Source of the DNA: a virus
Virus record (IMG/VR): IMGVR_UViG_3300020437_000017
Span: 1-39,816 of that record
DNA length: 39,816 nucleotides
Direction: 5' to 3' (one strand)
Shown here: positions 5,547 to 32,648 of the stretch, piece by piece
Layout of the letters: each line of letters starts with the position of its first letter
How positions within the stretch are numbered: position 1 is the first letter of the stretch
Translations under genes and position numbers: made by a program
Notes under the pieces: generated by a model
Told to the model about the DNA's origin: nothing
The model's input: the letters and a program-made list of their open reading frames with translations, nothing else
The model's database searches: none

Positions 5547-5554
5547 TATAAATA
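5547..5554 (+). promoter_or_regulatory. T4-type late promoter
   Basis: TATAAATA in CTTATAAATAGATAT, 36 nt upstream of ATG 5583 in an intergenic gap. It matches the T4 late -10 box recognised by gp55-directed RNA polymerase (known for T4; no gp55 is seen in this window). Confidence 0.75.
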
Positions 5555-5582: not shown

Positions 5583-6812
5583 ATGAAAGGTTTTACATCA
5601 TTTTTAGCAGAAGCTAAGAATACACACATGGAGCATATAGAAGATAATATACTCAATGGTGGTGTAAATGGTGCCAGAGAATCTATGAACTTTCTAAGAT
5701 CAATAAGAGATATGCTTGCTGGTAATTCTACAACTAGTGTAAATGTCTCTGTTAAATGGGACGGTGCACCAGCTATATTTGCAGGAACAGATCCGTCAGA
5801 CGGAAAATTCTTTGTCGCTAAAAAAGGTATTTTCAATAAAAATCCTAAAGTATATAAAAGTGTAGCAGAAGTTAAAGCTGACACAGAAGGTGATTTGGCA
5901 GAAAAACTAGTAGAAGCATTTACATTATTACAAGGTGCAGGTATAAAAGGTGTTATTCAAGGTGATTTCTTATTTTCAAAAAAAGATATAAAATCTGCTA
6001 AAATAGGTGGTGAGAAGTCTATGACATTCCACCCTAACACCATTGTATATGCCATTCCTTATTCAAATCAAACGCTAATTCAGGAAATAAGACAAGCACA
6101 AATAGGTATAGTATGGCATACACGATATAAAGGTAAATCATTCGAAGATATGTCTGCTGAATATGGTGTTAGTATTGCTGATGGTGTAAATGCTAAAGGT
6201 GTTTGGAGTGTTGATGCACTTTATCAAGACACATCTGGTACTGCTACTATGACTAAAAAAGAAACTGATGAAGTTACTGCAATATTATCTAAAGCAGGTA
6301 CTGTATTTCAAAAAATAAAAGCATCTACATTAAATGGTATTTCAGAAAATGATGAACTTCTTATGAGAATGAAAACATTTTTAAATACTAAAGTTCGTGA
6401 TGGTAAAAGAATTACAAACGTAAATAAAACTGTAGATGAAATGATAACATACTTTCACAATTTCTTTAAAGGAGAAAGTGATAAGAGAAAGTCTAAAAAA
6501 GGTAAAGACGCCGTTAATCTTAGAAAAGAAGATGTTATGAGATTTTTCTCAAAGACTAATAAAACACAACTAGCAAACATTTTGAATCTAATGAATCATT
6601 TCGTTGATGCTAAGTTGATACTTATTAAGCAAATGAATCAAACTGCAAAACTTAAAACATTCTTATCAACAGAAGATGGATTTAAAGTAACAGGACAAGA
6701 AGGATATGTTGCTATAGACAAGTTTGGTAAAAATGCAGTAAAGTTGGTTGATAGACTAGAGTTTAGTAAAGCTAATTTTTCCGACAAGGTTAAAAAAGGT
6801 TGGCAGAAATAG
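5583..6812 (+). CDS. Ligase/nucleotidyltransferase-fold late protein (DUF6267-like)
   Basis: A 409-residue protein under a late promoter. SVKWDGAPAIF (residues 56-66, Lys58) resembles motif I (KxDG) of covalent nucleotidyltransferases such as DNA ligases. GVIQGDFLF (123-131) resembles motif III, and IGIVWHTRYKG is a candidate later motif. I associate this family with DUF6267 of T4-like phages. No OB-fold or DNA-binding domain is obvious and activity is unproven. The N-terminus reads FLAE-AKN (residues 7-13), matching the L-x-E cleavage rule of the T4 prohead protease, so the protein may be packaged in the head. Expression is late, so a replicative ligase role is unlikely. Confidence 0.75.
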   Translation: MKGFTSFLAEAKNTHMEHIEDNILNGGVNGARESMNFLRSIRDMLAGNSTTSVNVSVKWDGAPAIFAGTDPSDGKFFVAKKGIFNKNPKVYKSVAEVKADTEGDLAEKLVEAFTLLQGAGIKGVIQGDFLFSKKDIKSAKIGGEKSMTFHPNTIVYAIPYSNQTLIQEIRQAQIGIVWHTRYKGKSFEDMSAEYGVSIADGVNAKGVWSVDALYQDTSGTATMTKKETDEVTAILSKAGTVFQKIKASTLNGISENDELLMRMKTFLNTKVRDGKRITNVNKTVDEMITYFHNFFKGESDKRKSKKGKDAVNLRKEDVMRFFSKTNKTQLANILNLMNHFVDAKLILIKQMNQTAKLKTFLSTEDGFKVTGQEGYVAIDKFGKNAVKLVDRLEFSKANFSDKVKKGWQK

Positions 6813-6985
6813 TATTCATACTAGCTACTGTTGTAGCTGATAAAACTATACAAGTACAAGAATTTAACTGGAAACGACAGTGCGAACTTGCATCAAAAGG
6901 TAGAATGATGTATACTCCTAATATTAATTATGTATGTATTGAAAGGGTTTATGATGAAAGCAGGAAAGATATGGGGAACAACTGA
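6800..6985 (+). CDS. Small exported two-cysteine protein
   Basis: A 61-residue frame starting with TTG inside the previous gene's last codons. An N-terminal hydrophobic stretch (EIVFILATVVA) is followed by a short polar domain with Cys28 and a second cysteine in YVCIE. The layout matches genes at 38395 and 38766. Probably membrane-anchored or periplasmic with a disulfide. The TTG start and weak ribosome-binding site make the start uncertain. Confidence 0.55.
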   Translation: MAEIVFILATVVADKTIQVQEFNWKRQCELASKGRMMYTPNINYVCIERVYDESRKDMGNN

Positions 6986-7301
6986 ATTAGTTGAAGCCAA
7001 TTGTGCATTAGAATTTCATAGAATAGAAATGAAAAAAGGTGGTATCTGCTCAAAGCATTTACACGAATATAAATGGAATGGTTTCTTTGTCGAGTCTGGT
7101 ATCATGAAAGTATCAGTATGGCAAAAAGACTATGACTTAATAGATGAAACAATACTCAAACCTGGAGACTATACAAAAGTAAAACCAGGACTATATCATC
7201 AATTTGAATGTATTGAAAGTGGTGTAGCATTTGAATTATATTGGGCTACTTTTAATCACGATGATATAATAAGAGAAACAGTAGGAAAAATGAAAAAGTG
7301 A
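6951..7301 (+). CDS. Cupin-fold protein
   Basis: A 116-residue single cupin. Motif 1 is GGICSKHLHEYKWNGFFVESG (glycine, HxH, Glu, Gly) and motif 2 is PGDYTKVKPGLYHQF (GDY...PGxxH). The metal-binding His and Glu positions are present. Start ATG 6951 has GAAAGGG upstream. It overlaps kdsA by 1 nt (TGATG), so the two are probably co-translated, which suggests a sugar-related substrate (isomerase, epimerase or sugar sensor). Family certain, reaction unknown. Confidence 0.8.
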   Translation: MMKAGKIWGTTELVEANCALEFHRIEMKKGGICSKHLHEYKWNGFFVESGIMKVSVWQKDYDLIDETILKPGDYTKVKPGLYHQFECIESGVAFELYWATFNHDDIIRETVGKMKK

Positions 7302-8098
7302 TGAGTCGCTGGTTTAACAGAATAGGTGATTTTGACAAGTGGAACGGACATTTGATTGCTGGACCTTGTGTATACGAAGGATATGATCATGCCTGTTTTA
7401 TGCTTGATAAGATATTACCTATCTGTGTAGACAAGAGAGTAAATCTTTTATATAAGACTAGTTTTGATAAAGCAAACAGAACAAGTGCTGATAGTTTTAG
7501 AGGTGCTGAAAATGCACTCAAAGACTTTGGTAAAATTAAGAAAGAGTTTGGTATTGAGATATGCTCAGATATTCACGAAACCTCACAAATAGAATATATG
7601 GACAATGTGAATGTCATACAGATACCAGCATTTTTGTGTAGACAAACTGATTTACTCAAAGTAGCGTCTGATAGTGGACGTCCTGTCATGGTAAAGAAAG
7701 GACAGTTTCTATCACCAACAGACATGTCAAATGTAGCTAAGAAGTTAGAAAGTTTTGGTTGTGAAAGAATTATTCTAACAGAAAGAGGCACTACATTCGG
7801 ATATAATAATCTAGTGGTTGACTTTCGTTCAATACCTATCATGAAAGAAACTGGACATAAAGTTTGTATAGATGCTACTCATAGCACACAAATGCCAGGA
7901 GGTAATGGTAAAACGAGTGGTGGTGATAGTCAATATGCAAGTCTAATGATGAAGTGTGGTTTAGTGGCTGGTGCTGATATTGTATTTGCAGAAGTGCATA
8001 ATAATCCATTTGAGGCACCTAGTGATGCAGAGACACAACTGGATATAATGGAGTTTGAAAGTTTTGTGGAGGATATATGTCTGTACAACGAAAGTTAA
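7301..8098 (+). CDS. kdsA: 3-deoxy-8-phosphooctulonate synthase (Kdo-8-P synthase)
   Basis: Condenses phosphoenolpyruvate with arabinose-5-phosphate to Kdo-8-phosphate, the committed step toward Kdo of LPS and capsule. Family signatures run in order: LIAGPCVYEG, YKTSFDKANRTS, IQIPAFLCRQTDLL, VKKGQF, LTERGTTFGYNNLVVD, DATHS and AEVHNNP. The cysteine of AGPC (Cys23), His194, Glu231 and Asp242 match the four metal ligands of the metal-dependent class (Aquifex type). The metal-independent E. coli type has Asn in place of the Cys. At 265 residues it is near full family length (about 270-280). ATG 7301 overlaps the cupin stop; GTG 7298 is an alternative. A host-derived auxiliary gene. Confidence 0.93.
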   Translation: MSRWFNRIGDFDKWNGHLIAGPCVYEGYDHACFMLDKILPICVDKRVNLLYKTSFDKANRTSADSFRGAENALKDFGKIKKEFGIEICSDIHETSQIEYMDNVNVIQIPAFLCRQTDLLKVASDSGRPVMVKKGQFLSPTDMSNVAKKLESFGCERIILTERGTTFGYNNLVVDFRSIPIMKETGHKVCIDATHSTQMPGGNGKTSGGDSQYASLMMKCGLVAGADIVFAEVHNNPFEAPSDAETQLDIMEFESFVEDICLYNES

Positions 8099-8232
8099 AA
8101 AAACTGTACATAAAAATGCTTAGAGCCTTTGCAAAAAAGAAAATCAAAAAAGGTAATAAATACAGACAGCATATGATTGAAATAACAGCAACAGGTAATG
8201 TCATTATACAAGCTAAAAAGGATAAAAAATGA
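8077..8232 (+). CDS. Small basic hypothetical protein
   Basis: A 51-residue strongly basic protein (starts MSVQRKLKKLYIKMLRAFAK) overlapping the end of kdsA by 22 nt. GGAGG sits upstream of ATG 8077. No domain is recognised. The good ribosome-binding site supports expression. Confidence 0.6.
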   Translation: MSVQRKLKKLYIKMLRAFAKKKIKKGNKYRQHMIEITATGNVIIQAKKDKK

Positions 8233-8408
8233 CTATGGATTTATTTCGACATTTAAGAATACATACAAAAACTAAAAAAACAAAAGAAGTTAAAAATACT
8301 GGAACTTATGTAGATAAATTAAAAAAAGAACCTACTGAAAAAGAAAAGATGGATAAACATTTCAATGGTAAGTCTTATGTCAAAGATGGGATAGAAAGTG
8401 ATTTCTGA
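8229..8408 (+). CDS. Small charged hypothetical protein
   Basis: A 59-residue, Lys/Thr-rich protein starting in an ATGA overlap with the previous gene and overlapping the next by 11 nt. No domain is recognised. Its tight coupling on both sides is the main support. Confidence 0.6.
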   Translation: MTMDLFRHLRIHTKTKKTKEVKNTGTYVDKLKKEPTEKEKMDKHFNGKSYVKDGIESDF

Positions 8409-9084
8409 AAGTGTATTATTATTTCCTACTCTGATAACAGTAGGTAAGCGTGAAGTAGATGAACTTGAAAAAGAAAGCTGGTTTTCTGCATATCTAGAAA
8501 TGTCTGACGAAGATGGTAAATCTATGGACTATCTAGGTTATCAAAGTATTCATCATGATAAAAGATTCATGAAAGTTTTTAGTGATGTAGCTGATACGAT
8601 TCGTAATCATTTAAAAACCTTAGGTGTAGATATTGAGATTATTGATATTCATATAACTAAATCGTGGTTTAACGTGAAAAAAGAACATGGTAATCCTATA
8701 CATAATCATGCAGAAAATCATTTGTCATTTACTTATTATCCTCATTTACGTCAAGATAAACAATTAGTATTTTATCAAGATAGAAATAAAGTTAATAACG
8801 ATGTATACGAAGATTTTTTAGAATCTAATGTCAATGAATGGTATGACATCAATGCTACGAGTTATTCTTTACCAGTTCGTGAAGGTAATATATTTGTATT
8901 TCCATCTAGATTACTACATGGAGTTGGTACAAAGCACAAAGAAACTAGTTTAGAATCTTTCAAAAATAGAGATGATTTAGAAAGTTCAAGATTCTGTGTT
9001 GGTGGTGATGCCATATTAACAAGAAAAGATACAAAAGGTTACAATAAACTATTAACACCCATTGAAAACTGGAGAAAGTTTTAA
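8398..9084 (+). CDS. Putative 2-oxoglutarate/Fe(II) oxygenase-like protein
   Basis: A 228-residue protein with a GTG start. HNHAENHLSFTYY (His102, His104, Glu106), a central strand region, LLHGV (His174) and SSRFCVGG (Arg198) are laid out like phage 2OG-Fe(II) oxygenases of the TIGR02466 type: His near a first strand, distal His, then Arg for 2-oxoglutarate. The carboxylate of the facial triad is not certain. Substrate unknown; candidates are structural proteins, or a sugar given the adjacent kdsA and cupin. No glycosylation or signal features. Confidence 0.65.
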   Translation: MISESVLLFPTLITVGKREVDELEKESWFSAYLEMSDEDGKSMDYLGYQSIHHDKRFMKVFSDVADTIRNHLKTLGVDIEIIDIHITKSWFNVKKEHGNPIHNHAENHLSFTYYPHLRQDKQLVFYQDRNKVNNDVYEDFLESNVNEWYDINATSYSLPVREGNIFVFPSRLLHGVGTKHKETSLESFKNRDDLESSRFCVGGDAILTRKDTKGYNKLLTPIENWRKF

Positions 9085-9085
9085 T

Positions 9086-9093
9086 TATAAATA
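9086..9093 (+). promoter_or_regulatory. T4-type late promoter
   Basis: TATAAATA in ATTATAAATACTAC, in the short gap before the 1366-codon gene (ATG 9133, 47 nt downstream). It shares the ATAAATACTA extension with the box at 15347. Confidence 0.75.
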
Positions 9094-9132
9094 CTACAGA
9101 ATTAACAGTGTTAAGTCCAAGGAAAACACACT

Positions 9133-12100
9133 ATGAAAAAATTAGTATTTACATTTGGTAGAATGAACCCTCCTACAATTGGGCATGAGAAACTAGCGAA
9201 TAAGATAAAAGAAGTAGCGAGAAAAGAAAATGCGAATCCAAGGATCTACCTCTCTCATACACAAAATCCCAAGAAGGACCCACTCTCATACAACGACAAA
9301 TACCGCTTTGCAACGAAAGCCTTCGGCATCGTTAAAAGATCACAATCAAAGCAGATCTTTCAGATATTACCAGAAATCGAAAAAGAAGGATTCACCGACA
9401 TCATCATGGTTGTTGGATCTGATCGTATAAAAGAGTTCGATAGAGTACTACAAAAGTACAATGGTAAAGACTACAATTTCAATAGCATAAAAACAGTATC
9501 ATCAGGTGACAGAGATCCAGACGCTCAAGGCGTTGAAGGTATGTCTGGTTCTAAGTTGCGTGGTGTTGCTATGAGTGGTGATGAAAAAACTTTCAAATCA
9601 GGCTTAGCATCTAAGTTATCAGATGCAGACAAAACTAAAATCTATAACTTAGTACGTAAGAATTTAAAAGAGGCAATCATGACAGAATGGACAGAAGAAG
9701 ATGATTTAATTCTAGAAGAAGCTATGCAAGAAGTAGACTTCACAGAAGAAGAATTAGATATGTTAGCAGAACTTGGTGAATACTATGAAATGAACGAAGT
9801 TCTGAACTTTATGCAGAGAATAAAGAAATCAAGAGTCATGAAACGTCTAAGTAAGAAGTTAGCACGTTTAAGAAAGATTGCATCTAAGAAGATGAAAGGT
9901 GGTAAGAAACTCATGCAAATGGCAAGAAAAGCCGCCATCAAAGTTTTACGTAAGAAGTTAGTTGGTAAAGATAAAGCCGCCAAGTATAGTTTATTGTCAA
10001 TGGCAGACAAGAAACAAATAGATTTAAAAGTAAAAAAGAACCAAGCTAGAATAGCACCATTAGCTAGAAAGTTATTACCTCAAGTAAGGAAAGATGTTAT
10101 GCAAAGAGTTAAGCAAGCTAGACAAACACCACAGAACAATGAGTATGTACCAGAAGGTGTAGGTGCTGGTAAGTATTCAGCGATGAATTTAAAGAAAGCA
10201 AAAGAACTCATGAGTCCTGCAAAAAATAGAGAAGATGGTATTAAACGTATAATGAATGGTATGAAAGTATCATACAAGCAAGCTATTAGATTTCACGATG
10301 ATGTTATGAAGTCTCATGGTTTTAAGTCTGAAAGTTATGAACTTGGAGAAGCGATACCTAAAAGCACTATGTATGCCTTAGTAAAAGATGGTAAAGTTAT
10401 CGCAAAAGGCTCCAAGAGTGATATGATGAGTAAAAAGAAAAAAGAGGGCGGAACAGTTTATAACGCACCAAGTAAAAAAGTTGGTGATGCTATGAAAGAA
10501 GCTATGGTACCTGTTGGTAAAATGACTGGTAAAGGCTTTGAACCTGCAAAGAAAGATAAAGATACTAAGTTACCACCACATCTCAAAGATTTAAAAACAA
10601 TAAGAAAAGCATTTGCTAAGAGCAAAAAAGTAAAAGAAGATTTAGATGAAGCTAAGTCATCTACTGGTTATAAACTCTATCACAAATCATTTTCTGATGC
10701 TATGCAACACGCATATGCACACGCAAAGTCTAAGTTTGGTATTACTATCAAGAAAGATGAGATTGATAATAAAGTAGCGACTGGTCCTAGAAAACCAGGA
10801 ACAGGCAAGACTAACACATATAGACTAAAAGGTGACAAAGGTAACATTCAAGTACAAGTAGCTAATTTAGATGGTAAGAAGTATGAACTGAATATGTACA
10901 AAGAAGAGTTTAGTTATGGTGCTTGGCTTGAAGCAAAGAACTTTGCACAACAGGCGGCGATTGCCATAGCAAAGAAGAAGTCTGGAAAATATAACAAAGA
11001 TGGTGAAAGAACTGCACCTTATGCTAAAGAAGAGAAAGAAGCACCAAAGAAAACACCACAGGATCCAGATGTAAAGGACGTAGAAGGTACACAACCAAAA
11101 AAGTATTATAAAGGACTTAGCAAAGATACAAAAGACGCTAGAGCAAATTATTTTAAGAACAAAGATACAAGTAAGAATGATAATCGTCCTGCTCCTGGAG
11201 ATGCTGATGCTAAAACTAAGCCAAGTAAGCATACATTAAAGTTCAAAAGAATGTATGGTGAAGGCATCAAAATGCCTGAGTATGGACCAAAGCTAAAACG
11301 AGATGCACAAAAGTTAGGTATGAAAATTAATTTCAAACCTTCTGGATATTTTCTTCTAATAGGTAAAGATAGTGATGATTTTAAACATCATCAGAAGATT
11401 GCAAAGAAGTTAGGTATGACAGCTAGAAATTATAATAAAACAGCAAGTGGTGGTTCAAGAACAGAGTTAGACGAAGATGCGCCTTGTTGGGATACGCACA
11501 AGCAAGTTGGTATGAAGAAGAAAGGTGACAAGATGGTGCCTAACTGTGTACCTAAAAACGAAGATGCTGAAGATAGAGTAAAAGCTAGAATAAAAGCTAG
11601 ACAGACAGCAAATGATAAGAGAGATAGAATAGCCCTTGCAAGAGCAAGAGTAAGAGACACAGTAAGAGATATTAGAGGTGAAGCAAAAACGCCAGTAAAA
11701 ACAGGTAGTAAGCCTGTTAGCACAGGTAAAAAAGTTAGTTCGACTTCAAAGTCTGTAAAAACAGGTAGTGCAAAAGTACAAACTGGTAGCAAGCCTATAG
11801 TAGCAGGTGAGTCTAAAGGTTATTTTACTAGAGCAAAATCACCAACAACTAAAGGTAAAAATCTACTAAGAGTAGCTGGTGGAGATATAAAGAAAAAGCT
11901 AGGAGATATTGAACACAAAATAGAACCTGATAGTACAGGTACAAAATTAATTATTACTGTCGCTAAGAATGATGCTGAAAAAGCTAAAAAGCTTGTAGGC
12001 ATGCCAAACATGACAAAAGTTATTTCTGAAGAATTTTTTCTATCAGAAAATGCTAGTGCTGGTTTGAAAAAGAAATCAGAGAAGTCAGGTATACCTGTAG

Positions 12101-13233
12101 GTATATTAAGACAAGTTTATAATCGTGGTATGGCGGCTTGGAGAGGTGGGCATCGTCCAGGAGCATCACAGCAACAATGGGCTTTTGCGAGAGTAAACTC
12201 ATTCATTACGAAAGGTAGTGGTACATGGGGAAAGGCAGATAGTGATTTAGCCGCCAAAGCTAGAGCCTCTATGAAAAAGAAAAAGAAAAATGAAAGTATA
12301 AATGAAACTGGTGGTGCAGGTGAGTTTGGAACAAAAGCGTTACTCGCAAGATATCAAAAAGATACACCAGGACAACAATTACAATCAGCTTATAATGTAG
12401 ATGATGATTTCGGTGGTAAGCTTAAAAAGAAATTCAAAGACATACGAAAAAAGGACGGATTTGATTCTGTCGAAGAAGAAAATATGGAAGAAAAATTAAC
12501 AAGAGGACAACAAAGTAAGCTTGATGACTTGGAAGCATATTTGGGACATTTACAAAGAGTGTCGATGACACCTTCACGCAGAGCGGAGATAGAAGCTACT
12601 AAGAAAAAAATCAAGAAACTGAAGTCCGAAGAAACAGGAGATATAGAAGAGATGACTGGAATTAATGTTCCAGAACTCATCAAAACTACAATACATAGGT
12701 TATCACACCCAAAAGGATATGCAGATTTAATAAAAGATTATATTAAGAGAGCTAAAGAACCACACAGCGGAACAAATGGTGCGGTGCTTTCTGATGTTGC
12801 TAGAGAGAGAGGTTTCGATAGAGTGAAACCAATTCAAGATTATATAAATAGACTTGTAAATAAAGGTAAGTTACCTAAGTCTCTGATGGCATCTCATTGT
12901 AGAGAAGAAGTTGAAATAGATGAAGATGGGTGTCCTATAGATTTGTTTGATCATGTTCTGGAAGAAGCAGAGTATCAAGGTAAAAAAGTAACCTTGAATG
13001 ATCCTGTTCGTTCTAGTGATGGCAATAAGAAGTTTCATGTTTATGTGAAGAACGAAAAGGGTAATGTAATTAAACTAGGATTTGGCGATCCCAATATGGA
13101 AATTAAGCGAGATGATCCAGAAAGAAGAAAATCATTTCGTGCAAGACATAATTGCGATAATCCAGGTCCAAAATATAAAGCACGATATTGGAGTTGTTAC
13201 CAGTGGAGAGGCGGAGCTAAAGTAGATAACTAG
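9133..13233 (+). CDS. Giant multidomain late protein: N-terminal nucleotidyltransferase, DUF5824-like and other C-terminal domains
   Basis: 1366 residues under a late promoter. Residues 1-178 are a cytidylyltransferase-like fold: FGRMNPPTIGHEKL (8-21) is the GxxxPxxxGH nucleotide-binding motif and GMSGSKLR (136-143) is the SxxxxR-type motif. The rest is lysine-rich with small modules: a basic helical region (230-335), two alpha/beta segments (410-590, 700-765), a KTGSKPV-type repeat (856-892), a DUF5824-like region (about 973-1045, with VYNRGMAAWRGGHRPG), a helical segment (1174-1252), and a conserved C-terminal domain (1280-1360, GDPNMEIKRDDPERRKSF). L-x-E-A steps at 180, 196, 406, 506 and 1278 fall near module borders, like prohead-protease sites. 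I infer a prohead-core or packaged protein. Confidence 0.8.
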   Translation: MKKLVFTFGRMNPPTIGHEKLANKIKEVARKENANPRIYLSHTQNPKKDPLSYNDKYRFATKAFGIVKRSQSKQIFQILPEIEKEGFTDIIMVVGSDRIKEFDRVLQKYNGKDYNFNSIKTVSSGDRDPDAQGVEGMSGSKLRGVAMSGDEKTFKSGLASKLSDADKTKIYNLVRKNLKEAIMTEWTEEDDLILEEAMQEVDFTEEELDMLAELGEYYEMNEVLNFMQRIKKSRVMKRLSKKLARLRKIASKKMKGGKKLMQMARKAAIKVLRKKLVGKDKAAKYSLLSMADKKQIDLKVKKNQARIAPLARKLLPQVRKDVMQRVKQARQTPQNNEYVPEGVGAGKYSAMNLKKAKELMSPAKNREDGIKRIMNGMKVSYKQAIRFHDDVMKSHGFKSESYELGEAIPKSTMYALVKDGKVIAKGSKSDMMSKKKKEGGTVYNAPSKKVGDAMKEAMVPVGKMTGKGFEPAKKDKDTKLPPHLKDLKTIRKAFAKSKKVKEDLDEAKSSTGYKLYHKSFSDAMQHAYAHAKSKFGITIKKDEIDNKVATGPRKPGTGKTNTYRLKGDKGNIQVQVANLDGKKYELNMYKEEFSYGAWLEAKNFAQQAAIAIAKKKSGKYNKDGERTAPYAKEEKEAPKKTPQDPDVKDVEGTQPKKYYKGLSKDTKDARANYFKNKDTSKNDNRPAPGDADAKTKPSKHTLKFKRMYGEGIKMPEYGPKLKRDAQKLGMKINFKPSGYFLLIGKDSDDFKHHQKIAKKLGMTARNYNKTASGGSRTELDEDAPCWDTHKQVGMKKKGDKMVPNCVPKNEDAEDRVKARIKARQTANDKRDRIALARARVRDTVRDIRGEAKTPVKTGSKPVSTGKKVSSTSKSVKTGSAKVQTGSKPIVAGESKGYFTRAKSPTTKGKNLLRVAGGDIKKKLGDIEHKIEPDSTGTKLIITVAKNDAEKAKKLVGMPNMTKVISEEFFLSENASAGLKKKSEKSGIPVGILRQVYNRGMAAWRGGHRPGASQQQWAFARVNSFITKGSGTWGKADSDLAAKARASMKKKKKNESINETGGAGEFGTKALLARYQKDTPGQQLQSAYNVDDDFGGKLKKKFKDIRKKDGFDSVEEENMEEKLTRGQQSKLDDLEAYLGHLQRVSMTPSRRAEIEATKKKIKKLKSEETGDIEEMTGINVPELIKTTIHRLSHPKGYADLIKDYIKRAKEPHSGTNGAVLSDVARERGFDRVKPIQDYINRLVNKGKLPKSLMASHCREEVEIDEDGCPIDLFDHVLEEAEYQGKKVTLNDPVRSSDGNKKFHVYVKNEKGNVIKLGFGDPNMEIKRDDPERRKSFRARHNCDNPGPKYKARYWSCYQWRGGAKVDN

Positions 13234-13242
13234 GAGAATAAA

Positions 13243-14919
13243 ATGTCACTTGAAAGACAAATAAGAAAAATAATGGCAAATAGTGTGGGTATTTCTGAGA
13301 AAGTTATTAAAACGCCTCAGAAGTTACAAAGAAAAATGCAACTAAAAAATAAAACGAACTTTGATTTTAGATTGTTTGATCCAGAAGACTCTCCTGGTTC
13401 TGATAAAGCTAATGATGACATGAATAAAGAAATTGTCAAAGCATCAAAGATGAAAGACAAAAATACTGCCTATCAACATATGATGAAAATTCAGAAGAAA
13501 CACTCTAAGCATGGTGCAACAGATACAGAGCCTAGAGAAATGATACGTGCAATTCTTGATAGAGTTTTTGATGAAAGTGTTAACTTTGAAGAAAACTTTA
13601 TGAATCCCGATTGTGATATCTGTAGTGATGGCTCACCATGTATATGTAAAATTCAAGGAGTAGAAGAAGCACTTGACGCTGATGATACACCTCAAATTAA
13701 AAAGATAGTAAAGAAACTCAAAGGCGCAAGTAAAGCACATGCTGATCAAGCAAAAAGTCTAGAGAAAGAACTATCAGATGATAAAAAAGTTATGTGTCCT
13801 AAGTGTAAAGGTGAAGGCTGTGAGCATTGTGATAACAAAGGATATCACATGTCAGAAGATATCAGAAATCTTCCTAAAGATAAACAACGTGCATTACAAC
13901 ACGCAGATAAGACAGCAAAGCCAAAGAGTAAAGTGTCACTAGCACCAACACCAGGAATAAAGACTGAAGAAACTAATTTAGATGAGGCTTTCGAACAATT
14001 CTTTACTGAAGGTTACGAAGGCGAAGTTAAGAAAGTATTAGATAAAAAAGGTATTGATGCTTACTTTAAGAATGGTAAACTCATGGTGAGTAAGCGAGAT
14101 AAAGGAATGGTAATTCAAATTTTAAAACGGCAAGATTTTGACATGCCCAAGATTCAAGTAGAGGAGATACAAATGGAAAGCAATCGTTTTGGTTTGTCAG
14201 TAAGTCTTGTAGACGCAGTGGCAGATGTGTTAGCTGGTAAACGTCCAGTTGAAGAAAAGAAAAAAATGGATCCAGTAGGACAAGAAGATGGTGACATCGA
14301 CAATGATGGTGATAAAGATGATTCAGATGAATATCTTATGAAAAAGAGAAAAGCTATTGGTAAAGCCATGAAGAAAGACGCTGGTGGAAAAGAGCCAGTC
14401 GATACCAAGCCTAAGATGGACGAAGAAAAAATAGATGAAAAGCTTACACCAGCACAAAGAGATATGCGAGATGCAGGTAGAGGAAAAGATGCAGGTGCCA
14501 AAAGTTATGTGAAACATCAAGCAGGTAGTGACAATCCTCATAAGAAAGGTAGAATGCACAAAGGCGACACTCAGTCTCATGATGATCAAAGACATGTAAG
14601 AAAAGGTGAAGATGATTTCAAAAAACCATCTCAAGATAAGCTTGCCTCTCAACCTTCACCAGCAAAAAGACTAGACATGAAGAAGAAGAAAGATGCTTTT
14701 GATAAAGCAAAGGCACAGTCTCAAAGTCCTTCAGGTAGAGATAACATGGGTGGTGTAGGAGTAAGAGAAGGTGAGATGACTGACGCTCAAATGAAAAGAC
14801 GAGAAGAGATTGTAAAAGAACTCAAGAAGAAGTCTGCTGATTTTGAGTCACGTTATGGTGATAAAGCTGATGCTGTCATGTATGCAACTGCTACGAAGAT
14901 GGCGATGAAAGGTAAGTAA
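13243..14919 (+). CDS. Large charged late protein with zinc-knuckle and EF-hand-like loop
   Basis: 558 residues, AGGAG before ATG, 9 nt after the giant gene. Cysteines at 124, 127, 133 and 135 and a DnaJ-type half zinc finger CPKCKGEGCEHC (185-196) suggest metal binding. Residues 351-363 (DIDNDGDKDDSDE) form an EF-hand/dockerin-like calcium loop. The C-terminal MTDAQMKRREEIVKEL...RYGDKADAVMYATATKMAMK is a conserved tail in T4-like phages. A L-x-E-A step (LDEA, 246-249) matches the prohead-protease rule. Probably a companion core/scaffold or internal head protein; this is inferred from context, not homology to T4 gp22. Confidence 0.75.
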   Translation: MSLERQIRKIMANSVGISEKVIKTPQKLQRKMQLKNKTNFDFRLFDPEDSPGSDKANDDMNKEIVKASKMKDKNTAYQHMMKIQKKHSKHGATDTEPREMIRAILDRVFDESVNFEENFMNPDCDICSDGSPCICKIQGVEEALDADDTPQIKKIVKKLKGASKAHADQAKSLEKELSDDKKVMCPKCKGEGCEHCDNKGYHMSEDIRNLPKDKQRALQHADKTAKPKSKVSLAPTPGIKTEETNLDEAFEQFFTEGYEGEVKKVLDKKGIDAYFKNGKLMVSKRDKGMVIQILKRQDFDMPKIQVEEIQMESNRFGLSVSLVDAVADVLAGKRPVEEKKKMDPVGQEDGDIDNDGDKDDSDEYLMKKRKAIGKAMKKDAGGKEPVDTKPKMDEEKIDEKLTPAQRDMRDAGRGKDAGAKSYVKHQAGSDNPHKKGRMHKGDTQSHDDQRHVRKGEDDFKKPSQDKLASQPSPAKRLDMKKKKDAFDKAKAQSQSPSGRDNMGGVGVREGEMTDAQMKRREEIVKELKKKSADFESRYGDKADAVMYATATKMAMKGK

Positions 14920-19155: not shown

Positions 19156-19492
19156 TTGCTCAGTATTCAACACACCAGAAAAAGAAATTGTTACTGTTAC
19201 AGATATTGTTCGTCCAAAAATAACAATAGCTGAAAAACCAAAATCACTAAAATTAACAGATGTAAAATGGTTCATTGTCAATAAGGACAATGTAGATCAA
19301 TTTCTATTAGATTATGAAAATCAAAATGGCGATTTAGTATTCTACGTTATATCTGTACGTGACTACGAAAAGTTAGCACTTAACATGGCGATGATAAGAG
19401 AATATATACTAAAGCAAAACGAGATAATTGTATATTATGAAGAAGCAGTAACACACGAAGAGGATAAGATAGATGAGGAAGTACTTCAGTAA
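19103..19492 (+). CDS. Lipoprotein, o-spanin candidate
   Basis: 129 residues with signal sequence and lipobox LSSC (Cys19) in KSYLLILSLLLLSSC. The mature part is alpha/beta with KWFIVNKDNVDQFLLDYE and a helical RDYEKLALNMAMIREYI. It is longer than classical Rz1, so the o-spanin role rests on the lipobox plus the out-of-frame overlap with the i-spanin-like gene. ATG 19103 and 19106 are both possible starts. Confidence 0.7.
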   Translation: MMKLKSYLLILSLLLLSSCSVFNTPEKEIVTVTDIVRPKITIAEKPKSLKLTDVKWFIVNKDNVDQFLLDYENQNGDLVFYVISVRDYEKLALNMAMIREYILKQNEIIVYYEEAVTHEEDKIDEEVLQ

Positions 19493-20318
19493 TCCAGCAT
19501 CGTTTATAAATGCACCGCTAATATTAGATTGGGATAATCCATCATGGTGTGCTTACTTTTTTGCAGAAGTATCTGCACTTGCATATCACGATGGTACTAA
19601 AGCAAAGAAAGAATTAAAAGCTATAGGTTTTAATAGCTATAAGTTTTTAGAGAATGATGGTGCCCAATGTCACATATTCAATAATAGTGAACACTTAGTT
19701 ATAGCATTTAGAGGTACAGAACCTACAGAGTTCTCAGATGTCAAAGCTGACTTACTCGCAATCAAGAGAAAGTCAAAGACAGAAGGTAGAGTACACATGG
19801 GTTTCAAGTTAGAAATTAGAAAATTATGGGCAGATATATCAGCAATACTGAAAAATAAGAAGCAAAGAATATGGATATGTGGACATAGTTTAGGTGGCGC
19901 AATGGCAACTCTATGTGCAAGTAGATTAGAAGAGTTAGAACCAACTCTTTATACATATGGTTCACCAAGAGTTGGTGGTAGAGAATGGAGAGATGGTTGT
20001 GATGTAGAACATTATAGATTTGTAAACAATAATGATATTGTAACAGCAGTCCCATTATGGTTGATGGGTTACAGACATCATGGCACTGTGCGATATATTG
20101 ATTATTATGGTAGAATCAAAAGAATGACATTTGGACAAAAAGTAAAAGATCAACTATTAGGTAGATGGAAAGCACTAACTAAGTTTCAACTATTTGATGG
20201 TATATACGATCATGATATTGCTGGTGGTTATGCAGATAAATTACAAGCATTGTGGTTTGAAGGTAGAGAAAAGATAAGGAAAAGAGCAAATGTGGGACAT
20301 GATAGAAAGAATGTTTAG
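19473..20318 (+). CDS. Class 3 lipase (alpha/beta hydrolase)
   Basis: 281 residues. Lipase-3 signatures: HLVIAFRGTEPTEFSDVKADL (74-94), GRVHMGF (105-111), nucleophile elbow GHSLGG (137-142, Ser139), SPRVGG (164-169), Asp188 in NNNDIV and His202/203 as the acid and base. No signal peptide is seen, so export would need a holin or other route. It overlaps the o-spanin candidate by 20 nt and is followed by two membrane proteins, so action on host membrane lipids during lysis is a reasonable inference. Confidence 0.88.
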   Translation: MRKYFSNPASFINAPLILDWDNPSWCAYFFAEVSALAYHDGTKAKKELKAIGFNSYKFLENDGAQCHIFNNSEHLVIAFRGTEPTEFSDVKADLLAIKRKSKTEGRVHMGFKLEIRKLWADISAILKNKKQRIWICGHSLGGAMATLCASRLEELEPTLYTYGSPRVGGREWRDGCDVEHYRFVNNNDIVTAVPLWLMGYRHHGTVRYIDYYGRIKRMTFGQKVKDQLLGRWKALTKFQLFDGIYDHDIAGGYADKLQALWFEGREKIRKRANVGHDRKNV

Positions 20319-22750: not shown

Positions 22751-24653
22751 TTATTTACCAACAGAATATCAAGAATTTATTCATCTGTCGAGATACTCAA
22801 GATGGATACCCGAAAAAGGTAGAAGAGAAACATGGGAAGAAACTGTTAGTAGATATTTCGATTTCTTCACAGAACATTTGCAAGAACAAAACGATTTCGA
22901 ATTAGATGAAGTATCAAGAAAGAGATTAGAAGAAGCTGTGCTATCTCAAAAAGTAATGCCTTCAATGAGATGTCTTATGACAGCTGGTGAAGCTTTGAAA
23001 AGAGAAAATGTAGCTGGTTATAACTGTTCGTATGTCGCAGTTGATTCTCCTAGAGCATTTGATGAAATACTTTATATTCTAATGAATGGTACAGGTGTTG
23101 GTTTCTCAGTAGAAAGACAAGATGTTATAAAGTTACCAAACGTAGCAGATGAATTACACCCTACAGATACCACAATTGTGGTACCCGACAGCAAACTAGG
23201 TTGGGCAAAGTCATTGAAAGAATTAATACATTTGTTATACTCAGGACAAATACCTTCATGGGATTTGAGTAAGGTGCGTCCAGCTGGTGCACCACTCAAA
23301 ACTTTTGGTGGTAGAGCATCAGGTCCAGAGCCACTAGATCAACTATTTCGTTTTGCTATAAATATATTCAAGAACGCTACTGGTAGAAAACTCACATCTT
23401 TAGAATGTCATGACTTAGTATGTAAGATAGCAGAGATTGTAGTTGTTGGTGGTGTTAGACGTTCTGCTCTTATTTCACTTAGCAATCTAAGTGATGATAG
23501 AATGAGAGTAGCAAAATCAGGACAATGGTGGGAAGACAATGGACAAAGAGCCCTCGCAAACAACTCAGCGTGTTACACAGAAAAGCCAGAAATCGGAATC
23601 TTCATGGACGAGTGGAAGTCACTCTACGACTCAAAGTCAGGTGAAAGAGGAATCTTTAATCGTCAATCTGCCAAAGAACAGGCTGGACGTAACGGTAGAC
23701 GAGACAATGACTGGGATTTCGGCACAAATCCCTGTTCAGAAATAATACTCAGAAGCAAGCAGTTTTGTAATCTATCAGAAGTAGTAATACGTGCTACAGA
23801 CGATATGAAGACACTAAAAGAAAAAGTAAAGTTTGCTACAATACTTGGTACATTTCAATCAACATTAGTTAACTTTAAATATCTTACAAGAGATTGGAAG
23901 AAGAATACTGAAGAAGAAAGACTTCTTGGTGTATCTCTCACAGGCATTATGGACAATACGTTAACAAATGGTAAAGAGTCTGGTTTAGATAAGAGACTCG
24001 ATGAACTACGAAAAGTAGCAATCGCAACAAACGCAGAGTGGGCAGATAAGATTGGTATACAACAATCAGTTTCTATTACATGTGTGAAGCCATCAGGCAC
24101 TGTGTCTCAATTAGTAGACTCTGCATCAGGTATACATGCACGACATAATCCATATTATATAAGAACTGTACGTGCTGACAAAAAAGATCCTCTTGCAATG
24201 TATATGAGAGATGCTGGTTTTCCATGCGAAGATGATGTGATGAAACCAGATCACACTTATGTATTTTCATTTCCAATGAAAGCACCAGAGAATGCAGTGA
24301 TGCGACAAGATATGACAGCTATTGAGCAATTAGAATTATGGCTTGTATATCAAAAGCATTGGTGTGAGCATAAGCCTTCTGTAACAATCTCAGTAAAAGA
24401 AGATGAATGGTTCGAAGTTGGTGCATGGGTATATAAGAACTTTGATTGGATGTCCGGTGTATCATTCTTACCATACTCAGAGCATGTATACAAGCAAGCA
24501 CCATATCAAGATTGTGATTCTGTTGTATATCAAAGAGAGTTGGATAAAATGCCAAAGAACATAGATTGGACACAACTCTCCGCATATGAAACTACAGATA
24601 TGACAGAGGGTGCCCAAGAACTCGCATGTGTTGCTGGTGGTTGTGAAATCTAA
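22740..24653 (+). CDS. nrdJ: Adenosylcobalamin-dependent ribonucleoside-triphosphate reductase (class II)
   Basis: 637 residues. Reduces ribonucleotides to deoxyribonucleotides with B12. Motifs: AGYNCSY (Cys96), TGVGFSVERQ, NPCSEIILRSKQFCNLSEVV with thiyl Cys332, Glu334 and redox Cys343 at the 11-residue spacing of the Lactobacillus RTPR family, and a C-terminal CVAGGC pair (Cys630/635) that matches the RTPR regenerating cysteines. Depends on host cobalamin uptake. Overlaps ThyX upstream and GMP reductase downstream by 1 nt. Codons between about 23540 and 23720 are C-rich and unlike the rest. Confidence 0.95.
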   Translation: MRSNYLPTEYQEFIHLSRYSRWIPEKGRRETWEETVSRYFDFFTEHLQEQNDFELDEVSRKRLEEAVLSQKVMPSMRCLMTAGEALKRENVAGYNCSYVAVDSPRAFDEILYILMNGTGVGFSVERQDVIKLPNVADELHPTDTTIVVPDSKLGWAKSLKELIHLLYSGQIPSWDLSKVRPAGAPLKTFGGRASGPEPLDQLFRFAINIFKNATGRKLTSLECHDLVCKIAEIVVVGGVRRSALISLSNLSDDRMRVAKSGQWWEDNGQRALANNSACYTEKPEIGIFMDEWKSLYDSKSGERGIFNRQSAKEQAGRNGRRDNDWDFGTNPCSEIILRSKQFCNLSEVVIRATDDMKTLKEKVKFATILGTFQSTLVNFKYLTRDWKKNTEEERLLGVSLTGIMDNTLTNGKESGLDKRLDELRKVAIATNAEWADKIGIQQSVSITCVKPSGTVSQLVDSASGIHARHNPYYIRTVRADKKDPLAMYMRDAGFPCEDDVMKPDHTYVFSFPMKAPENAVMRQDMTAIEQLELWLVYQKHWCEHKPSVTISVKEDEWFEVGAWVYKNFDWMSGVSFLPYSEHVYKQAPYQDCDSVVYQRELDKMPKNIDWTQLSAYETTDMTEGAQELACVAGGCEI

Positions 24654-25699
24654 TGTTAATCACTGAAGACATTAAGTTGGATTATTCGGACGTTCTTATT
24701 CGTCCGAAGCGTTCTACATTGAAGACGAGAGCGAATGTAAACATAGAAAGAACCTACAAGTTCAGACATAGTGAAAGAGAATGGACTGGTGTTCCTATCA
24801 TGGCGGCTAACATGGACGTTGTAGGTACTTTCAAGATGCATCTAGCACTTTCAGAGTTTAACATGATAACATGTATAGCAAAAGCACTAAACATTTCAGA
24901 TGATTGGTGGAAATTAGCTTACATGGAAAAAGGCAGAGAGTTCTTAGGTTGTCTAGCTGGTATATCAGAAGATGAAATGAATCGTGTCATAGAGATTTGG
25001 AATGGTGCAAGAATGTCTTTTATAGGCATTGATGTAGCTAACGGATATACAATAGCAGTTGTTGATGCACTCAAAAAATTAAGAGAAAGATTACCTGACG
25101 CAACTATTATTTGTGGTAATGTAGTAACTGCCGATATGACACAAGAACTTATATTAGCAGGTGCTGATATTGTGAAAGTAGGTGTAGGTCCTGGTTCAGT
25201 ATGTACTACACGAATTAAAACAGGTGTAGGTTATCCACAACTGAGTGCAGTGATAGAATGTGCAGATGCCGCCCACGGATTAGGTGGACACGTAATTGCT
25301 GATGGTGGTTGTAACACTCCAGGAGATATTGTAAAAGCATTTGCCGCCGGTGCTGATTTTGTAATGATTGGTGGTATGTTGTCAGGACATGATGAGTGTG
25401 CTGGTGACTTAATATTTGAAGATGATAATCCAACTCCAGTAGGTATGAAGTTCTATGGTATGGCTTCTGAAACTGCAATGGAGAAACATGGTAATCTAAT
25501 AAAGAATGAGTATCGTGGTTCAGAGGGTAAAACAGTGACAGTGCCATATAGAGGTGCGGTGAAACCTACAGTAGTAGATATACTTAGCGGTGTACGTTCA
25601 GCTTGTACATATGTAGGAGCAAGTAATTTAAAACAACTAAGTAAGTGTACTACATTTGTACGTGTTAATAATACACACAACACTATATACGGAGTATAG
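24653..25699 (+). CDS. guaC: GMP reductase
   Basis: 348 residues, IMPDH/GMPR superfamily without CBS domains. Converts GMP to IMP with NADPH. Loop [18 protein letters not shown] carries catalytic Cys184 and Thr186; [27 protein letters not shown] is the phosphate-binding barrel; the segment [18 protein letters not shown] with its Glu and the final [18 protein letters not shown] are GMPR rather than IMPDH type. Would divert GMP toward the IMP/adenylate pool. Begins in a TAATG overlap with nrdJ, so it is likely co-expressed with RNR and ThyX. Confidence 0.92.
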
Positions 25700-27351: not shown

Positions 27352-27602
27352 TGCAGAAATTAGATACAGAACAACAACTCTTTGTCATTACGATGGAAGA
27401 GTGTGGTGAACTTGCTCAAATGTGTTCTAAGGCTATGAGAAAACAAAGAACAGATTTGCAAAATCTCAAAGACGAGATTGGTGATGTTTACGCCATGTTA
27501 GACTTAATGACAGAACATGGCATTGTTACTTGGAGTGAGATACATAATAGAGCAAGAGAAAAACGAAGTAAACTAGCAACATGGAGCGATTTAAGAACAT
27601 GA
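27351..27602 (+). CDS. MazG-like nucleotide pyrophosphohydrolase
   Basis: 83 residues. All-alpha NTP-PPase pattern: EECGE (EExxE, 16-20) and DEIGD (ExxD, 42-45), which bind Mg2+. The family hydrolyses NTPs or (p)ppGpp-like substrates, and phage MazG enzymes can act on dGTP/dCTP. It may clear unusual nucleotides for replication or reset host signalling. Start ATG 27351 overlaps TAA by 1 nt. Confidence 0.85.
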   Translation: MQKLDTEQQLFVITMEECGELAQMCSKAMRKQRTDLQNLKDEIGDVYAMLDLMTEHGIVTWSEIHNRAREKRSKLATWSDLRT

Positions 27603-28039
27603 GAAACATTTATTTACCAATAATTTTAGTAGGCATTTTATGTGGTATGTTACTGCAATGCAACATGGCAACGGCAGAATCAATGACTATCGAAATGCTA
27701 AACAAAAAAGGCAAAGAGAAAATGCTATATAGTGAAAATATAGCACGAATTGATGTAGGTGATACAATTACATGGGTACCAACATCAAAAGGGCATAACG
27801 TACAATTTGTATCTGTACCCGATGGTGTAGAAAAAATAAAGAGTAAAATGAATGATGAAGTTTCTTTTACTTTTGAACAAGAAGGCGTTTATCTTTACCT
27901 TTGTACACCACATGCAACTATGGGTATGATTGGTGTTGTCGTAGTTGGTGATTCTGAAGTAAACTTAGCTGAAGCGAAAAAGTATAAGTTCAGAGGAAAA
28001 TCTAAAAAGAAATTTAAGAAGATAGTGAAGGAACTATAA
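27599..28039 (+). CDS. Pseudoazurin (blue copper electron carrier)
   Basis: 146 residues from ATG 27599 (GGAG at 27583; upstream ATG 27581 has no site). Signal peptide MRNIYLPIILVGILCGMLLQ...ATA then a cupredoxin domain. Type-1 copper ligands His66 (GHNVQF), Cys102, His105 and Met110 (CTPHATMGM) have the pseudoazurin spacing, and GDTITWVPTSKGHNV and EGVYLYLCTPH match the family closely. Known role: periplasmic electron transfer, e.g. to nitrite or nitrous-oxide reductases. A phage copy is a probable auxiliary metabolic gene. A basic C-terminal tail (SKKKFKKIVKEL) is extra. Confidence 0.92.
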   Translation: MRNIYLPIILVGILCGMLLQCNMATAESMTIEMLNKKGKEKMLYSENIARIDVGDTITWVPTSKGHNVQFVSVPDGVEKIKSKMNDEVSFTFEQEGVYLYLCTPHATMGMIGVVVVGDSEVNLAEAKKYKFRGKSKKKFKKIVKEL

Positions 28040-28953: not shown

Positions 28954-29211
28954 ATGAGTAATCAAGCGTATCACAACAAAGGTTTTGGACCTGCGTTTCT
29001 ATGGATTATATTTTTGACAATGATATTACCTGTCTTAGGACTATTCACGATTGACGATACATGGGATAGAGTTGTTAACAAATATGTAAGTGCATGGACT
29101 TCAGAGTGTTGGCAAAATAGCAAACATGAGAGAGTGTGTAGAAGTGATAATAATTGTAAGTTTTTACGTAATTTTTGTATTGATGAGGTTTACAGATGGA
29201 AAGCAAAGTGA
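28954..29211 (+). CDS. Membrane-anchored cysteine-rich protein
   Basis: 85 residues from ATG 28954. N-terminal helix (FLWIIFLTMILPVLGLF) then a soluble domain with four cysteines (SECWQ, RVCRS, NNCKF, NFCID), which suggests two periplasmic disulfides or a metal site. Overlaps the DoxX-like gene by 16 nt. Confidence 0.65.
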   Translation: MSNQAYHNKGFGPAFLWIIFLTMILPVLGLFTIDDTWDRVVNKYVSAWTSECWQNSKHERVCRSDNNCKFLRNFCIDEVYRWKAK

Positions 29212-29633
29212 GAAAATTTAGAATACCAGATTTTTGTATGTCTCATTGGTTACTCAGATTACCACTGGTAGTAGTTTTTATTCAGCAAGGTATAATGAAA
29301 ATACCAGTAAGTGCTGAAGAGGCGGCAACATTTGGCTTATCATATCTAGTTTGGTGGTTTGTTGCTTATGGTGAGTTACTTGGTGGAATAGGACTTATTG
29401 TCGGTGGTATAATGAATAAGCCGTATTTACCTATTTTAGATAGATGTTACATTCCAGACATAGGTGATGCAATCACACGTTTTAGTGGTATTACATTATG
29501 TTGCATCATGACGGGCGTAATATGGATTGGTGAACCAGAAAGTATCATGGACGTTATAATGTATGACAATCTACATGTATTTTTATGGGTTGGTGCTTTG
29601 TTCTTTGCACTGAGAGGTAACAGAGCGTCATGA
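29196..29633 (+). CDS. DoxX-like integral membrane protein
   Basis: 145 residues with four predicted spans. LLRLPLVVVFIQQGIMKI, FVAYGELLGGIGLIVGG, FSGITLCCIMTGVIWIG and NLHVFLWVGALFFALRG follow the DoxX/DoxD family layout. DoxD is a thiosulfate:quinone oxidoreductase subunit; most DoxX proteins have no assigned reaction. Neighbouring pseudoazurin suggests redox context. Overlaps the glycosyltransferase by 4 nt. Confidence 0.75.
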   Translation: MESKVRKFRIPDFCMSHWLLRLPLVVVFIQQGIMKIPVSAEEAATFGLSYLVWWFVAYGELLGGIGLIVGGIMNKPYLPILDRCYIPDIGDAITRFSGITLCCIMTGVIWIGEPESIMDVIMYDNLHVFLWVGALFFALRGNRAS

Positions 29634-32330: not shown

Positions 32331-32648
32331 ATGAATGATTATAATATGCAAAGTATGGAGTTTGATACTAACATTATGAAAGACATTGAGAAGCAAAGAA
32401 TTATAGAACAACTTGAAGAAGGTGTTCTAGTTATAAATTTCACAAAAAAAGATGGTACTACTCGCAGAATGAAAGCGACATTGCGTGAAGATATCCACGG
32501 TTATGTGGGTGCTAATAGAGATCCTCTTGGACCTAAAGCAAATGTTGAAAGAGAAATTCTAAAAGAGTATCTTGCAGTATATGACACTGAAAAGAAAGAT
32601 TGGCGTTCTTTTCGTTGGGATTCATTAATAGGAGTTAATAATGGCTGA
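32331..32648 (+). CDS. WYL_2/Sm-like SH3-fold protein
   Basis: 105 residues. EEGVLVINFTKKDGTTRRMKATL (30-52) and VYDTEKKDWRSFRWDSLIGV (83-102) are the pattern I recall for PF10902 (WYL_2), an Sm-like SH3 beta-barrel family in T4-like phages. Role unknown, perhaps nucleic-acid binding. Overlaps the glycosyltransferase by 8 nt. Confidence 0.75.
   Translation: MNDYNMQSMEFDTNIMKDIEKQRIIEQLEEGVLVINFTKKDGTTRRMKATLREDIHGYVGANRDPLGPKANVEREILKEYLAVYDTEKKDWRSFRWDSLIGVNNG

Follow-up and report, generated by a model that had tools for sequence, protein, structure and literature searches.

Do marine T4-like phages label enzymes for packaging in the head as T4 labels its internal proteins, and is part of this cargo made as a polyprotein that the prohead protease takes apart? 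The question is raised by three genes in a 39.8-kb fragment of a marine T4-like myovirus (IMG/VR record IMGVR_UViG_3300020437_000017; hereafter the window, the whole 39,816 nucleotides (nt) that were analysed). They encode a 409-amino-acid (aa) DUF6267 protein, a 1366-aa protein built of bead-like modules and a 558-aa lysine/glutamate-rich protein. An initial annotation of this DNA had proposed that L-x-E-A motifs in all three are steps of prohead-protease processing. Sequence comparison gives good support for a T4-type head-targeting tag on the 409-aa protein, and makes it likely that the 1366-aa protein is processed into beads. The 558-aa protein is the weakest member, with a case that rests on position and composition. 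As a proxy for the rest of the genome we used a 146.6-kb IMG/VR contig (G001), whose homologue of the giant 1366-aa protein is 96% identical in the best segment. The closest named relatives are Kyanoviridae (Phage C48C1, Methylophilales phages Melnitz, Pelagibacter phage HTVC008M and cyanophages) and also Stenotrophomonas phage DLP_6.

The listed motifs are all present at the residues that the initial annotation gave: FLAE-A at residues 7-11 of the 409-aa protein, L-x-E-A starting at residues 178, 194, 404, 504 and 1276 of the 1366-aa protein, and LDE-A at residues 246-249 of the 558-aa protein (nt 13978-13989). The (I/L)-x-E rule it invoked for the T4 prohead protease also agrees with the literature, in which gp21 of T4 cleaves after L/I-x-E.

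A T4-type tag on the DUF6267 protein

5583..6812, + strand: 409-aa DUF6267 protein with an RNA-ligase-like nucleotidyltransferase domain, likely a packaged enzyme (Pfam, AlphaFold2 model, BFVD)
5583..5612, + strand: predicted N-terminal capsid targeting sequence MKGFTSFLAE, cut predicted after E10 and before A11

The 409-aa protein matches the DUF6267 Pfam profile (E=2.5e-103, 346.8 bits against a cut-off of 27), and its start, MKGFTSFLAE/A (a slash marks the cut), is in exact register with that of T4 internal proteins II and III as given in the T4 record (MKTYQEFIAE/A). In T4 IPIII the first ten residues suffice for packaging, and genetic mapping assigns targeting to positions 4 and 7 and processing to positions 8 and 10 (PMC9026906); the targeting and processing positions of the 409-aa protein are F4, F7, L8 and E10. 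In T4, a D at position 10 prevents processing and leaves targeting intact. E10 is invariant among 45-49 DUF6267 homologues of 39-72% identity, and 80 of the 81 distinct sequences in the alignment keep an exact [LIVM]xE at residue 8. The AlphaFold model (mean predicted local distance difference test score, pLDDT, 87.6) falls below 50 over a single stretch, residues 1-14, which are predicted to be disordered. A tag that is conserved yet unfolded fits a targeting and cleavage signal, and the FLAE-A proposed as a processing site thus gains support as part of a T4-type targeting and processing sequence. A second candidate, LVEA at residues 109-112, lies inside a confidently predicted helix and for that reason was not taken as a cut site; it is probably uncut.

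Does this protein have a ligase fold, as the initial annotation stated? Motifs K58-W-D60-G61, E373-G374 and K387 are invariant in the DUF6267 alignment apart from the near-invariant W59, and we take them to resemble nucleotidyl-ligase motifs (KxDG motif I and the later EG and K). These motifs stand; the fold itself stays tentative. RNA ligases were the best named Foldseek matches outside its own family among BFVD viral models (E=4.6e-3, prob 0.91), at template-modelling (TM) scores of only 0.24-0.29. Neither a profile search nor Foldseek found a match in PDB, and hhalign of DUF6267 to T4 Rnl2 (RNA ligase 2) and T4 DNA ligase gp30 was negative. The top BFVD match is a natural S-PM2 fusion of a DUF6267 domain with a cytidylyltransferase. 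The most likely readings are that the 409-aa protein would be delivered at infection as an enzyme that repairs RNA or modifies RNA ends, and that the first bead of the giant protein (bead A, below) would be an NAD-related enzyme.

The tag on other proteins of relatives

We searched 3028 distinct open reading frames (ORFs) from the relatives' loci for the pattern M.{1,3}[FYL]..[FYHIL][LIVMT].E at the ORF start. It was found on 238, where 13.4 are expected from shuffles or 9.4 from the rate at internal methionines, with a consensus of roughly MKSFKQ(F/Y)(L/I)TE. Stripped of the tag, these proteins make up more than 20 families that are unrelated to each other, among them DUF6267, nucleotidyltransferases and bead proteins. 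A clear Pfam assignment was obtained for just 4 of 20 tagged cargo proteins and most of the others have no Pfam match; assigned cargo includes an HD_4 protein, an adenylate kinase, a HAD phosphatase and a zeta/AAA kinase. A few small tagged groups, such as RecA-like UvsX, probably belong to the matches that chance predicts. When a looser pattern was run on six genomes or parts of genomes one by one, most had matches near expectation; few genes per genome are tagged, so pooled ORFs and the internal-methionine control are needed. A search of openly accessible papers found no report of this tag in marine T4-like phages, cyanophages included. A review has suggested that capsid targeting sequences let T4-like phages package various proteins (PMC9026906).

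The tagged HD_4-domain protein (MKTFKKYIAEDTLNES...) occurs at two of the relatives' loci (L032:13785-14339 and L095 near 12820) and resembles small alarmone hydrolases. If that resemblance holds, it would be a head-delivered modulator of the stringent response.

Tagged proteins in cyanophage virions

Virions of the Synechococcus phage S-CREM2 have been analysed by mass spectrometry, with the detected proteins given in Table 3 of the report (PMC10665884). Our scan of its genome found tagged starts on five annotated genes:

gp6: S-adenosylmethionine (SAM) hydrolase, MKDFDSFLEE, in the virion table
gp13: MKDLHSFLTE, in the virion table
gp14: APH-like kinase, GTG start, KRFDAFLTE, in the virion table
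gp154: cytidylyltransferase, MKNFSSFLTEA, in the virion table
gp175: 55 aa, MNWLKNYLIE, not in the virion table

Four of the five are thus virion-detected, against 52 of 219 genes overall (hypergeometric p~0.01, computed by hand). Looser forms of the tag are found on two more virion proteins, gp136 (MQTFSMFFSE) and gp12, where LRFASFMAEA lies inside the annotated start. The latter, a virion-detected nuclease annotated as 'Cas9/Csn1' (OR473000 7704-10313, - strand), has LRFASFMAEAA ~17 residues past its annotated start, which suggests either a tag with an upstream extension or a wrongly annotated start. The cytidylyltransferase T4-GC190, listed among the virion proteins of cyanophage S-SM1 (PMC3037559), starts MKKFSAFLNEA. 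The packaged enzymes that the initial annotation envisaged therefore have reported counterparts: tagged nucleotidyltransferase homologues in the virions of two cyanophages, S-CREM2 and S-SM1.

Protease, capsid cleavage sites and late promoters

5547..5554, + strand: exact TATAAATA copy, a T4-type late promoter 36 nt before the 409-aa gene; also 36 nt before the G001 orthologue
9086..9093, + strand: exact TATAAATA copy, a T4-type late promoter 47 nt before the 1366-aa gene; also present in G001, at a distance of 50 nt

All 10 complete relatives, G001 included, encode a gp21-family protease (PF03420). No gp21-type protease was found in the window, as the window is a genome fragment. Predicted ends of the major capsid propeptide are SLLGE/A in G001, AFLSE/A in Melnitz, GMLSE/A in a second contig, AFLGE/I in HTVC008M and SFLTE/A in T4. 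Judging from these ends, the lineage's protease very likely recognises L-x-E/A, and the enzymatic basis of the original proposal, a prohead protease with fitting sites, does exist in this lineage.

The octamer TATAAATA also precedes genes 18, 22 and 23 of G001 as a late promoter. It lies 15-80 nt upstream of a gene at 4 of 6 occurrences in the window and 17 of 29 in G001, where 6-8% is expected (6% of positions in G001). Late promoters are about twice as frequent at tagged genes as at others (17% vs 9%, Fisher p=0.0006). We read the 409-aa and 1366-aa genes, probably together with the 558-aa gene, as putative late genes for head proteins. Two further exact copies lie inside coding sequence, away from annotated starts, at 12843 in the giant gene and 23357 in the ribonucleotide reductase gene; these are possibly chance matches or internal late starts.

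The 1366-aa protein as a string of beads

9133..13233, + strand: 1366-aa bead protein, a nucleotidyltransferase domain plus at least 5 further modules with linkers (BLAST module map, architectures, AlphaFold2, PHROG, Pfam); predicted packaged polyprotein
9133..9672, + strand: bead A, residues 1-180, NMNAT/cytidylyltransferase-like (phrog_3041, E=7e-76; Pfam CTP_transf_like 19.9 bits, just below the cut-off of 21)
9664..9675, + strand: candidate site LKE/A, residues 178-181, where bead A ends; in relatives, 12 BLAST matches stop exactly at 178
9712..9723, + strand: candidate site LEE/A, residues 194-197, in an acidic linker predicted to be helical
9796..10122, + strand: bead C, residues 222-330, basic helical module, with stand-alone tagged forms and fused forms with an upstream [LI]xE
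10342..10353, + strand: candidate site LGE/A, residues 404-407, disordered linker; the G001 major capsid protein has the same LGE/A
10642..10653, + strand: candidate site LDE/A, residues 504-507, directly before bead E
10654..10932, + strand: bead E, residues 508-600; stand-alone homologues begin MITLREFKEKMHEA/
11050..11280, + strand: bead F, residues 640-716; a stand-alone homologue begins MKTFQEHISEVAQD
11467..11478, + strand: candidate site LDE/D, residues 779-782, disordered linker
12040..12054, + strand: conserved candidate site LSE/NA, residues 970-974, before bead H
12055..12270, + strand: bead H, DUF5824 domain (Pfam E=1.5e-16), residues 975-1046
12958..12969, + strand: conserved candidate site LEE/A, residues 1276-1279, before bead K
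12970..13230, + strand: bead K, residues 1280-1366, highly conserved C-terminal module (82-92% identity, most relatives shown)

Relatives encode these modules in architectures that range from single beads up to A-C-E-F-H-K, and less common pieces are also present. Melnitz and HTVC008M encode bead proteins along with DUF6267. Beads encoded alone frequently start with the tag. Bead C does so in C48C1 (MLSFKQFVSEV) and Melnitz (MKKFSELTSEL), stand-alone bead H proteins start MIKFKHYIKEDA, MKFKEYISEDA or MLSFKSYLNEDA, and bead K, usually a separate small protein, starts for example MKTFREFTEE...LQEA/EYQG. The tag is carried by 12 of 17 stand-alone DUF5824 proteins (0.1 expected), 16 of 56 K (0.5), 3 of 8 F (0.0) and 3 of 20 C (0.2), and by 15 of 51 homologues of the bead A nucleotidyltransferase that start near the domain (0.4).

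Fused beads have a corresponding step at their borders. Compared with shuffled linkers, an [LI]xE within 12 aa upstream precedes bead C in 42 of 58 cases (9.4 expected), F in 25 of 63 (7.7), H in 47 of 59 (8.3), K in 19 of 29 (4.1) and A in 8 of 8 (0.7). For bead K the stricter [LIVMF]xE[ASG] occurs in the same interval in 24 of 29 fused forms (1.7 expected) and in 49 of 61 forms with a short upstream part (2.9 expected).

Motif counts within single proteins are too weak to decide much. Relative to shuffles of each protein's own residues, [LI]xE[AG] occurs 5 times in the 1366-aa protein (1.3 expected, p~0.02), twice in the 409-aa protein (0.4 expected, p~0.05) and once in the 558-aa protein, which is chance level (0.5 expected, p~0.4). 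We therefore pooled 43 non-redundant multi-module relatives of the 1366-aa protein, each with at least 3 of the same modules, and found 80 [LI]xEA against 24.9 expected from shuffles (3.2x). Control patterns in the same proteins are flat ([LI]xDA 0.65x, [LI]xKA 1.0x, [LI]E 1.0x, [LI]xxE 0.94x). Large proteins that lack these modules (n=296) have [LI]xEA at 1.5x, not above [LI]xDA (1.7x), so that the comparison with other large proteins, proposed as a check in the initial annotation, sets the bead family apart. A chance-level frequency, named there as evidence against processing, is what the 558-aa protein has; the 1366-aa protein and its 43 relatives have an excess. Helix periodicity as the cause of the excess was dropped because [LI]xD, [LI]E and [LI]xxE show none in the same proteins.

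Conservation of position is uneven. In an alignment of collinear relatives with DUF5824 and K fragments, an exact [LIVM]xE is kept at residue 1276 in 47 of 65 sequences (within a few residues in 63 of 65) and at 970, a site that the initial annotation did not list, in 42 of 62. The figures are 17 of 46 at 504, 9 of 38 at 404, 12 of 58 at 194, 13 of 76 at 178 and 8 of 45 at 779. Of the sites that the initial annotation listed, 1276 and residue 8 of the 409-aa protein are thus well conserved in relatives, and 178, 194, 404 and 504 are each poorly conserved. In the AlphaFold model the 1366-aa protein consists of folded blocks with long disordered stretches between them; sites 404, 779, 1056 and 1262 lie inside disordered stretches, and 970 and 1276 at the edges of beads H and K. 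As a set, the [LI]xE sites of this protein show no statistical concentration in low-confidence residues. A Pfam search at E<=1 found no peptidase domain in it.

13243..14919, + strand: 558-aa bead-like lysine/glutamate-rich protein, 9 nt 3' of the giant gene, with PHROG matches to pieces

The LDE-A of this protein, also proposed as a processing site, does no better than chance in number, and an exact [LIVM]xE is kept there in 6 of 15 sequences.

Other genes in the window

Several genes away from the three proteins merit mention. Next to a cupin gene (6930-7301) lies a DAHP synthetase I family gene (7298-8098, Pfam E=3e-53), whose product is probably a KDO-8-phosphate synthase. Together with glycosyltransferase and capsule-synthesis genes (30346-31344 and 32641-33705), this pair suggests phage-encoded sugar biosynthesis. 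A class 3 lipase (19473-20318, E=8e-23) is encoded in the stretch 3' of the bead proteins and small structural-looking genes. An IMP dehydrogenase / GMP reductase (24653-25699, E=4e-72) immediately follows a ribonucleotide reductase, which has a match to a class II insertion domain. A plastocyanin/azurin-type copper protein with a signal-peptide-like N-terminus (27581-28039, E=1.2e-17) and a DoxX-like membrane protein (29196-29633) are possible auxiliary electron-transfer genes. At 36275-37045 this T4-like marine phage encodes a Mom-family protein (Pfam Mom, E=2.7e-54); Mom is a DNA-modification family best known from phage Mu.

Are these proteins packaged, cut and delivered?

We consider it probable that the tagged DUF6267 protein is a packaged enzyme and that the bead string is cut by the head maturation protease. 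Docking of the enzyme to the prohead core would depend on F4 and F7 of the tag, and cleavage by the gp21-type protease would follow L8-A9-E10. The 1366-aa protein would consist of folded beads, the first NMNAT/cytidylyltransferase-like, on flexible linkers with L/I-x-E steps. Of its borders, at least the two conserved ones near 970 and 1276 would probably be cut by the same protease, freeing beads in the head ahead of DNA packaging. On infection, the DNA would be accompanied into the host by tagged enzymes and beads, which would act early in the manner of T4 Alt and the internal proteins. Here we infer the cleavage, the packaging of the untagged giant protein and the injection.

Several observations weigh against this explanation. 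The DUF6267 protein of cyanophage S-SM1 has no tag and starts MCDSTLSCYNNG (NC_015282 147295-148269), although the cytidylyltransferase encoded next to it does carry one. DUF6267 is not known from any virion, and N-terminal peptide data were found for none of these proteins. The 1366-aa protein of the window lacks an N-terminal tag and starts MKKLVFTFGRMNPPT straight into the enzyme domain, and its G001 homologue and most of its closest relatives are also untagged. The AlphaFold model of the 1366-aa protein scores low overall (pLDDT 62), and of the protein's five LxEA sites, four (178, 194, 404 and 504) show poor conservation when taken singly. The lone site of the 558-aa protein is at chance. 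The S-CREM2 authors warn that enzymes may be co-purifying contaminants (PMC10665884), an explanation that is weakened because the detected enzymes share the tag.

Might the giant protein instead be a multi-domain 'polyvalent' protein that is packaged whole, with flexible linkers and uncut LxEA motifs? Virion-packaged proteins with many domains of different kinds form an established class (PMC5512222), and the poor conservation of the individual sites from 178 to 504 fits this idea. Yet [LI]xE just before beads is far above expectation and enriched specifically over [LI]xD and other spacings, and the same beads, when encoded alone, start with a tag that ends in LxE. We regard whole packaging as doubtful, with some plausibility left to it.

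It is unlikely that the bead proteins are mainly prohead core or scaffold like T4 gp22, gp67 and gp68, chopped by the protease and mostly expelled before packaging and so not delivered. The beads are strongly basic and the linkers acidic, T4 gp22 is cut at many sites under the same rule, and the polyprotein genes have the same late promoter as gp22 and gp23. However, relatives have a separate gp22 gene, and bead A and DUF6267 are enzyme-like with conserved residues that a disposable scaffold would not need. Furthermore, the S-CREM2 virion table reports tagged nucleotidyltransferases and the bead-like gp160 in mature virions.

That the L-x-E-A motifs of the giant and 558-aa proteins are chance products of lysine/glutamate-rich chains is quite improbable. 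The 558-aa count is indeed at chance and the 1366-aa protein alone gives only p~0.02, but the 3.2-fold excess over 43 relatives with flat controls and the conserved 970 and 1276 borders largely refute this for the family overall; chance may still account for single sites such as 194 and residue 246 of the 558-aa protein. Finally, strong conservation within DUF6267 could also be expected if MxxFxxFLxE had no connection with the head and belonged to the enzyme fold or acted as a membrane or translation signal, a reading we hold to be very improbable for a segment that is predicted disordered, occurs on more than 20 unrelated folds and marks virion-detected S-CREM2 enzymes.

Beyond packaging and cleavage at this locus, we lean slightly towards a wider interpretation, in which one T4-type tag is the general export label of marine T4-like phages for an exchangeable injected arsenal, part of it packed as protease-cut polyproteins, so that the injected proteome may be readable from genomes. 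This arsenal would include RNA-ligase-like, NMNAT-like and HD-domain (possibly alarmone-hydrolysing) proteins, adenylate kinase, HAD and zeta-kinase proteins, a SAM hydrolase, a protein kinase and a Cas9-annotated nuclease. With the tag as a guide, first-minute effectors of abundant ocean viruses could be predicted and listed from their genomes. As enzymes recur in cyanophage virion proteomes, a label that can be read from sequence makes the question of cargo versus contaminant, left undecided in the S-CREM2 paper, directly testable. If true, opening a cargo polyprotein would be a new use of the capsid maturation protease.

Comparison with known systems

The closest parallel is with T4 IPI, IPII, IPIII and Alt, which share the 10-residue tag in the same register (F/Y4, F7, I/L8, E10), a gp21-family protease, late expression and the L/I-x-E rule. 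The T4 internal proteins are small and known as GmrSD inhibitors, and once injected they inhibit type IV restriction (PMC12373910), whereas the marine phages tag many larger, enzyme-like proteins and also encode cargo as fused bead strings. Packaging, cleavage and injection have been shown in T4; for the marine phages we infer them. The head ejection proteins of phiKZ and SPN3US are similar in that a gp21-like protease matures many head proteins after x-x-E. They differ in motif (S/A-x-E in phiKZ) and in having N-terminal propeptides rather than exchangeable bead strings.

Polyvalent proteins, as described by Iyer et al. 2017 (PMC5512222), likewise join many unrelated domains in one late-encoded chain that is thought to be delivered with the DNA. 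Their release is ascribed there to embedded metallopeptidases (zincin-like; common, not universal), in contrast to the prohead protease proposed here, and the main text, as searched, does not name cyanophages. The cytidylyltransferases of S-SM1 and S-CREM2 virions have a domain homologous to bead A and start MKKFSAFLNEA or MKNFSSFLTEA; the available text of the papers on these phages draws no link between the enzyme and a targeting sequence. In those cyanophages the cytidylyltransferase is a separate tagged protein, whereas here it forms the first bead of an untagged 1366-aa chain.

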